A model generated the notes under the pieces. It searched no databases and had not been told where the DNA came from. It worked only from the letters and a program-made list of their open reading frames with translations. 44,212 nt of DNA, taken from positions 5,160-49,371 of the forward strand of contig JAEPQF010000006.1 of assembly GCA_017640685.1 (NCBI GenBank), read 5' to 3'. This document shows positions 11,920 to 41,600 of this stretch, piece after piece; position 1 is the stretch's first letter, and every line of letters starts with the position of its first letter. This DNA is from Hyphomicrobiales bacterium (GTDB taxonomy: Bacteria > Pseudomonadota > Alphaproteobacteria > Rhizobiales > HXMU1428-3). The position numbers and the translations under genes are program-made.

Positions 11920-12024
11920 ATATAATTACAGACGTTTGCGTACTAAATTGCTCATTCATATGATTTGAGTGAGTATTTAAGTTGAAAAAAGATATTCAAT
12001 TTAAGTTAACGCGGCTACAACCTC

Positions 12025-12050
12025 GGTTGCTAGTAGGCAACTTAAGAGTC
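12025..12050 (+). repeat. Type I hairpin repeat
   Basis: GGTTGC (12025-12030), TAGTA loop, GGCAACTTAAG. It is in the same orientation as its neighbours and stands about 60 bases before the nested copy at 12084. Confidence 0.7.
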
Positions 12051-12083
12051 GCAAAAAGAGTGGGCCTTAAGCTGTACAAATGT

Positions 12084-12152
12084 GGCGGTTGCTTGTGCCG
12101 GATGCATTGTGGGCATCTGAAGGCACACTAAGAGAGGGCAACCTGAAGCTGC
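12084..12152 (+). repeat. Type I repeat inserted in the loop of another type I repeat
   Basis: The outer copy begins GGCGGTTGCTTGTG (12084-12097) and continues GGCAACCTGAAGC from 12137. Between them lie 39 bases that form a second copy, with arms GGATGC/GGCATCT, a six-base outer stem TGTGCC/GGCACA that uses outer-copy bases from 12094, and the tail ACTAAGAGAG. Removing 12098-12136 restores an uninterrupted consensus outer copy. Confidence 0.85.
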
Positions 12153-12160
12153 ATCAAATC

Positions 12161-12191
12161 GCGGCGGTTGCTTGTGGGCATCTAAAGGCAC
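12161..12191 (+). repeat. Chimeric type I repeat with mismatched arms
   Basis: The left arm is of the GGTTGC class and the right arm of the GGCATCT class (GGTTGCTTGTGGGCATCT), leaving one T-T mismatch in the stem. The outer closure GCC...GGC is nearly kept. It looks like an exchange between two stem classes, or a point change awaiting compensation. Confidence 0.7.
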
Positions 12192-12214
12192 AACCAAAGA
12201 AGAGTCCTATTGTG

Positions 12215-30077: not shown

Positions 30078-30266
30078 AAAGAAGGAGCTCAGCCCTTTCT
30101 TGTCCTCCAGTTGCCCACTTCGGGCAATGGGATGTGGCGAAGCGTCAGCGTAGCCCGATGCACAAGATCAGCCCGAACGGAGTGGAGCGAGTACGGGATA
30201 AGCTGATCGCAAAAAAACATCGCACCTCGTAGGCCCATGAGCCTTAGCTCATGGAATAGCCGTGAA
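30078..30266 (+). repeat. Type II multi-hairpin repeat carrying a type III insert
   Basis: Framework blocks seen: GAAGGAG (30080), GATGTGGCGAAGCG (30131-30144), GCGTAGCCCG (30148-30157), GCACCTCGTAGGC (30222-30234) and AATAGCCGTGAAAGA (30255-30269). Hairpin A is TTGCCC/GGGCAA (30111-30126), hairpin C is CCATGAGC/GCTCATGG (30235-30254). Hairpin B (GATG...CATC) is interrupted by the type III element at 30160-30217. The gap to the right holds type I copies. Confidence 0.8.
30160..30217 (+). repeat. Type III hairpin element inside a type II repeat
   Basis: A 58-base unit with stem GATCAGC/GCTGATC, inner stem CCG/CGG, loop AACGGAGTGGAGCGAGTA and a terminal GCAAAAAAA. A second copy at 38363-38419 differs at paired positions that keep both stems intact. 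Confidence 0.75.
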
Positions 30267-32383: not shown

Positions 32384-32445
32384 TGCGGATGCTTTTTTTG
32401 CGGATGCTTTGTGGGCATCTGAAGCATAAAAAAGGCATCTGAAGC
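32384..32445 (+). repeat. Type I repeat nested in a type I repeat
   Basis: Outer left arm TGCGGATGC (32384-32392), a full inner copy at 32399-32426 with stem GGATGC/GGCATCT, an A-run, then the outer right arm GGCATCTGAAGCA (32433-32445) with the tail CAACTAAAAAAG. The inner copy therefore occupies the apical loop of the outer one. Confidence 0.85.
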
Positions 32446-32449
32446 ACAA

Positions 32450-32482
32450 CTAAAAAAGAATCCCGCCGGAAAATTCCGGCGG
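32450..32482 (-). terminator. Intrinsic terminator after dnaK
   Basis: On the minus strand CCGCCGGAA and TTCCGGCGG (32474-32482 and 32463-32471) form a GC-rich hairpin, followed by GATTC and a T-run at 32456-32450. It lies 23 bases after the dnaK stop, so dnaJ expression needs read-through or its own promoter. Confidence 0.85.
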
Positions 32483-35020: not shown

Positions 35021-36505
35021 ATGTTCTCACTTTCAAACTCAAACAATGATGCCCAAGCTAAATTAGAAGCTTTAGATAGATCACAAGCTGTGATTGAGTT
35101 TGAGCCTGATGGTACGATCCTGAGAGCAAATGATAATTTTTTAGGGGCAATCGGCTATTCCCTGGAAGAAATAAAAGGCAAACATCACTCAATGTTTGTT
35201 GACCCGGAAGAAGCCAATGGCGCGGAATACCGCCAATTTTGGTCAAACTTGGCAGCAGGTGAGTTTAAATCAACAGAATTTAAACGTGTTGCTAAAGGTG
35301 GTCGTGAAATATGGATTCAAGCATCGTATAACCCAATTTTAGATAAAAGCGGCAAGGTATATAAAGTCGTTAAATTTGCGTCAGATATTACAGCACAAAA
35401 ACAAGAATATGCTGATTTTCTTGGTCAGGTAAATGCGATTAGCCGGTCTCAAGCGGTGATTGAGTTTGATCTTACAGGGACCATTCAAACCGCGAATGAA
35501 AATTTTCTAGGGGCTGTTGGCTATTCACTAGATGAAATCAAAGGTAAACATCACCGGCTATTTATGGACCCAACAGAAGCCAATTCAGCTGCTTATCAAC
35601 AATTTTGGGATGCACTTGCACGCGGCGAATTCCAAGCCGGCGAATATAAACGCGTTGGTAAAGGCGGCAACGAAATCTGGATTCAAGCCAGCTACAATCC
35701 GATTATGGATATGAATGGAAATCCATATAAAGTGGTTAAATTCGCAACGGATAGAACCCAAGCTATTCAAGATCGTATGCGCCGCGAAGAGGCACAAAAG
35801 GAAATTAACAACGGCATTACGGAAATTAGAGATGCTGTAATGAATGCAAGTTCACAAGCAACAGAAGCGGCTTCAGCTTCAGGCCAAACATCACAAAATG
35901 TACAAGCTGTAGCTGGCGGCCTAGAGGAGCTTGCTTCTTCAGTTCAAGAAATTAACCAGCAAGTGACAAATGCACTTGAAATTTCAATGCAAGCTGTATC
36001 TCAAGCAGATAACACTAATACTATTATCTCAGGCCTTGCAACAGCCGCGCAGAAAATTGGTGATGTTGTAAGTCTGATTTCTGAAATTGCTGAGCAAACC
36101 AACCTCCTTGCTTTGAACGCAACAATCGAATCAGCAAGAGCTGGTGAAGCTGGCAAAGGTTTTGCGGTTGTGGCATCTGAGGTGAAATCACTGGCAGGCC
36201 AAACAGCGAACGCAACAGAAGAAATTAGTAATCAGATTGCCATGGTGCAATCGACCACAGAAGAAGCGGTAACAGCCATTCAAACAATCACTGAAACCAT
36301 TGGTAAAATTAATGAAATCTCTTCCATAATTTCAGCCGCCGTTGAAGAGCAATCAGCTGTAACGGGCAATATGTCAGCGAACATGCAAACAGCTGCTGAC
36401 GGTGTGAACGAAATTTCAAGCGGTGTTAGCGAAATCGCCCAAGCAACTGAAATGGTTGATATTGCGACACAACGCGTACAAGAAAGTTCAGCTGCCCTTG
36501 GTTAA
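35021..36505 (+). CDS. Soluble methyl-accepting chemotaxis protein with two PAS domains
   Basis: A 494-residue chemoreceptor without transmembrane helices. Two consecutive PAS domains (about 15-130 and 137-252) are very similar to each other: both contain [29 protein letters not shown] and YKVVKFA. The signalling hairpin tip is [18 protein letters not shown] at about 355-372, continuing [13 protein letters not shown]. Cytoplasmic PAS-MCPs of this kind sense redox, oxygen or internal metabolites, often via flavin or heme, but no cofactor ligand can be named. It would pass signals to CheA/CheW, which are not in the window. It stands alone, ended by a strong terminator. Confidence 0.93.
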
Positions 36506-36860: not shown

Positions 36861-36952
36861 CGGATGCTTGCGGCGGTTGCTTTTGCGGATGCTACGACGG
36901 TTGCTGGTAGGCAACTGAAGGAGCACTAAAAGAGTGGGCATCTGAAGCACAA
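36861..36952 (+). repeat. Deeply nested type I repeat array
   Basis: Four left arms occur in succession: GGATGC (36862), GGTTGC (36875), GGATGC (36888) and GGTTGC (36899). The last closes as a complete hairpin (GGTTGCTGGTAGGCAACT, tail GGAGCACTAAAAGAG), followed by the right arm GGGCATCTGAAGCAC (36937-36951). This looks like repeated insertion of copies into earlier copies with loss of some right arms. A related right arm, GGGTATCTGAAGCA, stands alone at 36836-36849. Confidence 0.75.
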
Positions 36953-38124: not shown

Positions 38125-38214
38125 GGTTGCTTGCGGCGGTTTTTGGTGGGAAACCTAAAGCCGTCTCAAAAAATGTGCAACCGAAGGCACCAAAAGAGAG
38201 AGCATCTGAAGTGC
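38125..38214 (+). repeat. Nested type I repeats including a GTTTT/AAAAC-type stem
   Basis: Outer left arm GGTTGC (38125-38130), inner copy from about 38134 with stem GGTTT/GAAACC and outer closure CGGC/GCCG, then the outer right arm GCAACCGAAGGCACC (38177-38191) with the tail AAAAGAGAG, and another right arm GAGCATCTGAAGTGC (38200-38214). Confidence 0.75.
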
Positions 38215-38256: not shown

Positions 38257-38362
38257 AAGCATTAGCCCGTGAGAGATAACAAGCAGTATTATTTATATAC
38301 GAAGGAGGAGTGACGTCTCTTCGGCGTCAGGACATGGCGAAGCGATAGTGTAGCCCGGCGGC

Positions 38363-38419
38363 GCACAAGATCAGTCTGAACGGAGCGCAGCGAGTACAGA
38401 TAAACTGATCGCAAAAAAA
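38363..38419 (+). repeat. Type III hairpin element inside a type II repeat
   Basis: A 57-base unit with stems GATCAGT/ACTGATC and CTG/CAG, loop AACGGAGCGCAGCGAGTA and end GCAAAAAAA. The paired positions that differ from the copy at 30160 change together. Confidence 0.75.
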
Positions 38420-38442
38420 GCCCCGCCCTTCGTAGGTAATAG

Positions 38443-38716: not shown

Positions 38717-38915
38717 ACTCTATTCCTCTTCTGTCAGCTTATCGTTCGTTAGAGTCTCGGCTCTAAATATGGTTAAAAAGTGCGCTTCAAAAAACTTATC
38801 CACAGACAGTTGCCGGACTTGAATTGACAGAAATTTCCAAATTAACTCAAAACTTTAAAAGCACAAATGCTCATAGAGTTGAAAAGAAATACAACAATCA
38901 AACCAGCATTACGAA
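38717..38915. other. Upstream region of the 73-residue gene
   Basis: About 200 bases, A+T-rich, with no repeat copy. A single perfect DnaA-box sequence (TTATCCACA) lies at 38796-38804 with no second box near it. I see no gene. Confidence 0.4.
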
Positions 38916-39030
38916 GAAGGAGTGACGCATTTTCGGCGTCAGGACATGGCGGAGCGGGAGCGTAGCCCGGCGCCTAGCGCCGCACCTCGTAGGCCTGTCG
39001 CTTCAGCGACAGAATAGCCTGTGAGAGATA
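38916..39030 (+). repeat. Type II multi-hairpin repeat, most complete copy
   Basis: An uninterrupted copy of about 115 bases. Hairpin A is TGACGC/GCGTCA (38923-38928, 38936-38941); then GGACATGGCGGAGCG; hairpin B is GGCGC/GCGCC (38969-38973, 38977-38981); then GCACCTCGTAGGC; hairpin C is CTGTCGC/GCGACAG (38995-39001, 39006-39012) closed further by GGC/GCC; the end is TAGCCTGTGAGAGATAA. This copy can serve as the reference for the family. Confidence 0.85.
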
Positions 39031-39072: not shown

Positions 39073-39200
39073 AAACTACGAAGAAGGAGCACCACTTTTC
39101 TTAAGCAGTGTGACATGGCGAAGCGCTAGCGCAGCCCGGGGCAAGCCCCGCCCCTCGGAGAAGCCCGCTGCTTTGCAGCGGAGTAGCTCGTGAGAGAAAA
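39073..39200 (+). repeat. Type II multi-hairpin repeat
   Basis: Starts TACGAAGAAGGAG. GACATGGCGAAGCGCTAGCG is conserved; hairpin B is GGGGC/GCCCC (39138-39149); the block CCTCGGAGAAGC replaces CCTCGTAGGC; hairpin C is CCGCTGC/GCAGCGG (39165-39171, 39175-39181); the end block is TAGCTCGTGAGAGAAAA. It follows the previous copy by only about 43 bases in the same orientation. Confidence 0.85.
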
Positions 39201-39335: not shown

Positions 39336-39404
39336 AGGCCGGTCGCTTGTGGGCAACCTGAAGGCCCAATTAAAAAGCCGGTTGCTTGTGGGCAACCTAA
39401 AGGC
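39336..39404 (+). repeat. Two tandem type I hairpin repeats
   Basis: Copy one (39336-39366) has outer stem GGCC/GGCC and arms GGTCGC/GCAACC with one C-A mismatch. Copy two (39377-39404) is perfect, with outer stem GCC/GGC. The tails are CAATTAAAAAG and CAGTTAATGAG. Confidence 0.85.
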
Positions 39405-39439
39405 CAGTTAATGAGTCCATCCCGAATTCTTCAGGCAAT

Positions 39440-41434: not shown

Positions 41435-41600
41435 TCGGTTGCTGGTGGGCAACTAAAGCGTCCTAAAAAGTTGTTTCTTATGCGGATGCCGCGGCGGTTT
41501 CTGGTGGGAAACTGAAGCTGCATCAAAAAAGTGAGCATCTGAAGCTAAGATTGCGGATGCCTAGTGGGCATCTGAAGTTAAGAAATGACAACTGAAGCGC
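41435..41600 (+). repeat. Type I repeat cluster with a nested copy
   Basis: A copy at 41435-41460 (GGTTGC/GCAACT); an outer left arm GCGGATGCC at 41482; an inner copy with stem GGTTTC/GGAAACT at about 41495-41515; the outer right arm GAGCATCTGAAGC at 41533-41545; a separate copy at 41551-41578 (GGATGC/GGCATCT); and an orphan right arm CAACTGAAGCGC at 41589-41600. Three stem classes occur in one cluster. Confidence 0.8.

Follow-up and report, generated by a model that had tools for sequence, protein, structure and literature searches.

Hairpin copies of roughly 39 bases, scattered by the hundred, frequently nested in another hairpin's tip and almost always oriented alike with respect to replication, point to an uncharacterised mode of spread of short DNA via exposed hairpin loops. 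One such case lies at positions 12080-12154 of the window, a stretch of 44,212 nucleotides (G000:C197:5160-49371) from an assembly, 3.5 Mb in 230 contigs, of an uncultured Hyphomicrobiales bacterium, and is best explained as a bulged-hairpin unit of about 39 bp placed within the apical loop of another. The unit itself is best explained as a non-coding mobile repeat: it occurs in many copies with defined ends, nests in loops only, has one orientation per contig and, where GC skew is strong, per replication strand, and turns over fast, and an unrelated palindrome, P52, behaves alike. We give a little better than an even chance to the proposal that a putative enzyme puts such palindromic units into hairpin loops laid bare at replication forks, and that the units are then recombined.

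A hairpin unit within the loop of another

The outer arms read ATGTGGC-GGTTGC at 12080-12092 and GCAACC-TGAA-GCTGCAT at 12138-12154, and between them lies the inner unit (Table 1). The + strand of 12080-12154, taken as single-stranded DNA, forms a single stacked double hairpin (-16.3 kcal/mol, z -3.13), a fold equalled in none of 200 shuffles, and the hairpin within a hairpin loop described by the first-pass annotation is thus real. Its claim that removal of 39 bases (12098-12136) restores the outer element also held up, since the remainder, ATGTGGCGGTTGCTTGTGGGCAACCTGAAGCTGCAT, folds like a normal unit with the loop TTGTGG, which is among the commonest loops (24 of 263 units); the outer loop reads equally well as TT^GAGG, one change from TTGTGG. 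Of the boundaries that it proposed, the size of about 39 bp stands but the start does not, the inner unit beginning 2-3 bases earlier, with T12096-G12097 forming part of its basal stem TGCC/GGCA, a stem present in 11 units. Outer loop and inner stem share this TG, which leaves the junction ambiguous by 2-3 bases. No target duplication flanks the site at 12084, as had been noted before, and at other nests, inspected by eye, the junction ambiguity is at most 2-3 bases.

Table 1. Hairpin units and related elements in the window
Feature	Position	Strand	Remarks
Second nested composite, degenerate, immediately upstream of the nest	12002..12074	+	Family D8; like 36876-36948 and 41473-41545
Outer unit, left half	12080..12094	+	Basal stem ATGTGGC, apical stem GGTTGC, loop start TT
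Inner unit	12095..12133	+	GTGCC-GGATGC-loop ATTGTGG-GCATC-TGAA bulge-GGCAC, A-rich tail ACTAAGA; each end ambiguous by 2-3 bases
Outer unit, right half	12134..12154	+	Loop remnant GAGG, apical stem GCAACC, bulge TGAA, basal stem GCTGCAT
Third unit, chimeric, adjoining the nest	12162..12202	+	Left half outer-like (GGCGGTTGCTTGTG), right half inner-like (GGGCATCTAAAGGCACA)
R element	30124-30215
P52 within third hairpin of R element	30160..30215 (ends approximate)	+	Unrelated palindrome, A-rich tail
Nested copy, inner and outer of same class	32386..32450 (ends approximate)	+	GTGC-GGATGC (TTGCGGATGC...GCATAAAAAAG) GCATC-TGAA-GCAC
Nested copy, GGTTGC-class inner	36882..36948 (ends approximate)	+	Outer TTGC-GGATGC / GCATC-TGAA-GCAC; GTGG remnant 3' of insert
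Probable nested copy, GGTTTT-class inner	38125..38195 (ends approximate)	+	Outer GGTTGC / GCAAC
R element	38298-38400
P52, second copy, same R-element position	38363..38420 (ends approximate)	+	In third hairpin of R element
R element	38910-39010
R element	39079-39150
Direct tandem of two units, period 39	39337..39416	+	Family D1; second mode of unit accumulation
Nested copy, GGTTTC-class inner	41478..41545 (ends approximate)	+	Outer ATGC-GGATGC / GCATC-TGAA-GC; GTGA remnant retained

The nested hairpin has a nucleotidyltransferase gene on one side and, on the other, an AddB-like gene carrying a PD-(D/E)XK nuclease domain. A mechanically called open reading frame starts at 12080, within the repeat, while its relatives start at ATGACAAATATTGT, here position 12214, and the nested repeat is therefore intergenic. 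Removing the 14 bases that separate the two TTGTG repeats of the nested copy gives the chimeric third unit, which is, for this reason, probably a deletion derivative. At least four further nests occur inside the window, and nesting recurs across the genome and the genus. A repeat of a different kind is found in the PAS-PAS chemoreceptor gene at 35021-36505, which carries two diverged internal copies at a spacing of 366 bp (families D6 and D11; Pfam).

The unit as a repeat family

The basal stem of each unit measures 4-7 bp. Above it come a TGAA bulge, located 3', an apical stem of the class GGTTGC, GGATGC or GGTTTC and a loop of 6-7 bases ending in GTGG; an A-rich 3' tail (56% A against a background of 29%) completes the unit. 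With a loose pattern the unit was found at 219 places in G000, and with exact cores at 348 in G002. For a set of units picked without use of the basal stem, 877 of 1064 basal positions pair, compared with 634 +- 12 when partners are shuffled; the sequence of this stem varies and its pairing is preserved by compensatory differences. The ends, running from basal stem to A-rich tail, are defined in nests, singletons and P52, and the discrete tailed unit of about 39 bp proposed earlier is supported. Tandem arrays with the period of the unit are common.

Two other readings of the unit were rejected. A permuted unit, with the right half preceding the left and a REP-like 5' GTGG foot, is incompatible with single copies, in which the left half comes first and the right half last; base counts in the flanks revealed neither a GTAG or GTGG foot 5' of the hairpin, GTGG being located in the apical loop, nor a constant CGTC end. 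An RNA function or terminator was set aside because no Rfam family matched above gathering score in the window and gene direction has at most a weak bearing on orientation.

Nesting is recurrent and falls in apical loops

A composite parser yielded 54 candidates, with the left half present in 50. Among the 263 parsed units, a left outer half precedes 90, a right outer half follows 55 and both are present for 42, where 18.8 would be expected if the halves were independent (Fisher p 5e-13), and the outer basal arms match one another better than reshuffled arms (98 against 74.2 +- 4.9, p 2e-4), both p values being somewhat optimistic because orthologous copies of G002 and G004 were both counted. 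The outer apical arms also fit one another better than reshuffled arms. When the split was allowed anywhere in the outer unit, every split scoring at least 11 fell in the apical loop, which bears out the apical loop, named earlier as the target, as the recurrent position of strong interruptions of units by units; the confinement could be due in part to survival or detectability instead of targeting.

The description of the insertion as clean was an overstatement. The 3' part of the outer loop is usually altered after insertion, a GTGG-like residue remaining 3' of the insert in about 9-12 of 46 nests, and some outer units are chimeric (L055, L059).

R elements, P52 and other inserted repeats

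Nesting extends to other families. The R element (ACGAAGAAGGAG ... GCCGTGAGAGA) is about 115-120 bp long and has four hairpin modules; their stems vary from copy to copy yet remain paired. The members in the window are oriented strictly with the units. Of the 66 R elements parsed, 15 hold P52, a 52-bp palindrome that ends in an A run, in the loop of the third hairpin; others carry 39-bp units in their first, second/third or fourth hairpin segments.

Slippage or tandem duplication within one locus is a conceivable source of nests, given that same-period tandem arrays are common and that G002 has gained a 36-bp unit relative to G004 (g2c5 66098). Simple slippage is disfavoured, however, by the mismatch between inner and outer classes, which holds at 12084 and, on a slightly looser nest count, in 39 of 46 nests, and by P52 and R having no sequence in common; we regard this origin as very improbable.

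An additional inserted repeat of about 98-131 bp was observed in G002:C1 near 1069520 (L098) and 994770 (L094) and at G004:C4:188295-188519 (L075). It has TAG on both sides at L094, some copies contain a 39-bp unit, and its appearance suggests a DDE-transposon MITE.

Orientation and replication

Almost all copies run in one direction per contig (229:15 for units, 95:3 for R starts and 30:0 for P52), and where |GC skew| exceeds 0.08 units lie on the C-rich strand by 105:4. Among the matches listed, nearly all copies on the 1.16-Mb contig of G002 are on the + strand. The direction of flanking genes is at most a weak predictor of unit orientation, and this one-way orientation irrespective of gene direction implies a coupling to replication. 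By the usual GC-skew rule, the reverse complement of the unit would be on the lagging-strand template. On about half of the contigs, where GC skew is weak, orientation is also one-sided, there without a tie to fork direction. Contig C177 of G000, among the contigs with several exact matches, has copies listed in both orientations and may contain the origin or terminus, or a misjoin.

Comparison across related genomes

Eight genomes of the genus (G000-G007) were compared, from assemblies incomplete to varying degrees; the named relatives are Hyphomicrobiales metagenome assemblies, one of them labelled Methyloligella sp. DHS20C07. G002 and G004, at about 90% identity, are sisters by this measure, G003 shows 82-86%, and G003 and G000 are more distant.

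The intergene between the NTP-transferase and addB genes holds a different tandem array ending in a nest in G002, a short remnant in G004 and no element in G007, and an empty site with an uninterrupted outer copy, proposed earlier as proof of insertion at 12084, was found in none of these three. Filled and unfilled forms of a loop occur at three other orthologous sites. At site 1, G007 has no unit, G002 one intact unit and G000 one nested unit, and G003 and G004 have a tandem pair of which the second is nested; the lone uninterrupted copy of G002 is probably a secondary loss. At site 2, the loop TATGTGG is intact in G000 and G004 and filled in G002 and G003, and exchange between arrays was observed. 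At an orthologous R site, the loop is CTA in G000 and GA in G002, and it contains P52 in G004 and a truncated P52 in G003. Since G002 and G004 are sisters and G003 is more distant, all three sites call for a loss or a gene conversion within a single lineage. At site 2 and at the P52 site, however, the outgroup has an unfilled loop, which favours gain by insertion there.

Turnover of the elements is fast. Of 49 orthologous intergenes where at least one of G002 and G004 carries a unit, 37 differ in count, and whole arrays have been gained and lost between genomes.

Search for a putative mobilising enzyme

The genome-wide search for enzymes covered the IS110, Y1 and reverse transcriptase families. 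Y1_Tnp (RAYT) gave no match in the incomplete assemblies of G000, G001, G002, G003, G005, G006 and G007; two Y1 transposases are encoded in G004 only (G004:C1:11499-15370; L122 and L123). A single IS110 transposase gene is confined to G002 (G002:C1:91629-92048; L165). Reverse-transcriptase domains occur only at G000:C178:10472-11074 (L139) and G005:C2:542686-543117 (L140), and none was found in the heavily loaded G002 and G004. As mobilisers, Y1/RAYT was rejected for its lack in seven of the eight genomes, IS110 as a single gene limited to one genome, and reverse transcriptase for its restriction to G000 and G005. No protein of the Y1/RAYT, IS110 or reverse-transcriptase families is common to the loaded genomes, and the enzyme is not a shared member of any of these.

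These distributions bear on two further explanations. Transposition of the RAYT/REP type, with a Y1 HuH transposase cutting near GTGG, would fit the conservation of GTGG in the unit loop, REP feet being GTAG or GTGG in the account consulted, and the use by Y1 elements of single-stranded lagging-template DNA described there (PMC6006769); it is the least probable of the mechanisms considered here, given the distribution of Y1_Tnp and the position of GTGG in the loop and not at the stem foot. RNA-mediated spread, whereby hairpin transcripts with 3' oligo(A) would be reverse transcribed and joined into looped DNA, would account for the A-rich tails of the unit and of P52 and for the maintained hairpin structure. 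We judge it improbable nonetheless, because the heavily loaded genomes lack the reverse-transcriptase domain and orientation follows contig and replication strand, not genes.

Insertion and template switching

Two models remain: insertion by an enzyme at fork-exposed loops, and replication template switching among copies. According to the first, palindromes of a single template strand would be extruded at the fork, and a putative trans-acting enzyme would put another unit into the exposed loop, in the ~39-bp family immediately 5' of GTGG. Tandem arrays, chimeras and losses would arise afterwards, as copies recombine and slip.

The second dispenses with a dedicated mobile element and invokes replication-associated template switching together with homeologous recombination between hairpins that are scattered in their hundreds. 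The polymerase would stall at hairpins of one template strand, switch at short homologies (GTG, TTGTG) in the loops and then return, and the model predicts nests, chimeras, tandem arrays and strand bias. Consistent with it are the chimeric unit at 12162-12202 and the chimeric outer units, the exchange of arrays at site 2, arrays gained or lost in their entirety, the microhomology at the 12096-12097 junction, and the strand bias of the copies. Enzyme insertion is nevertheless favoured, because the inserted units have defined ends in nests, singletons and P52 alike, the two arms of outer units fit together, and most nests combine different classes, and template switching as the sole process seems to us rather unlikely. 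The chimeras, the array exchange and the changed loop remnants imply that recombination acts too.

A broader form of the insertion model, in which a fork-coupled process of this genus places A-tailed palindromes of several unrelated kinds in the apical loops of other palindromes, in one strand orientation only and by an enzyme outside the recognised transposase classes, is put forward tentatively, its likelihood falling somewhat short of even.

Relationship to known palindromic repeats

Short palindromic repeats in the organelle DNA of Volvox carteri are intergenic and often lie within one another, with no proven enzyme (PMC2670323). The units resemble them as short palindromes nested in non-coding DNA, a likeness of behaviour and not of sequence descent. 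The Volvox repeats belong to organelle DNA and are described as running both ways along one strand, whereas the units here have one orientation per contig or replication strand on a bacterial chromosome, with the apical loop mapped as the insertion position. GC clusters of yeast mitochondria, such as GC42, are mobile hairpins of about 42 nt that show presence/absence polymorphism and the merging and shuffling of units (PMC4478555), all features similar to those of the present units; GC42 has AG target nucleotides, whereas the units show no duplication, an A-rich tail and strand-biased loop nesting.

Among bacteria, REP and REPIN sequences with RAYT are likewise short, bulged intergenic palindromes in many copies (PMC3116915, PMC6006769), but seven of the eight genus genomes yielded no Y1 transposase, the units lack a GTAG/GTGG 5' foot, and the arrays are head-to-tail whereas REPINs are inverted pairs. 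CGTC-tagged palindromic repeats, including the Rickettsia RPEs, are also described as bacterial families without a dedicated transposase (PMC3733652), but the units have no constant CGTC end. ISPsy8 and IS621 target REP palindromes, ISPsy8 at the symmetry axis of the predicted hairpin (PMC1525189). A palindrome is the target in both cases, but there the insert is a complete IS that encodes its transposase and here it is another short palindrome.

Target-site duplication, a feature of MITEs of DDE transposons, was not seen for the units at nests checked by eye. Elements of the IS200/IS605 type show replication-oriented insertion into single-stranded DNA without duplication; here, one-sided orientation and absence of duplication are seen from sequence alone. 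We found no report of loop-nested, replication-oriented palindromes in a bacterium in the portions of the open-access literature consulted.

Nested palindromes of organelles were noted earlier, and their mechanism was left open (PMC2670323). This bacterial genus offers hundreds of copies, several relatives, a mapped insertion position and a clear link to replication direction, and the spread of transposase-free short palindromes becomes directly testable. Fork-coupled loop insertion, if true, would constitute a structure-targeted and sequence-tolerant form of DNA mobility, and the results suggest that hairpin loops exposed in replication can be hot spots for DNA insertion.
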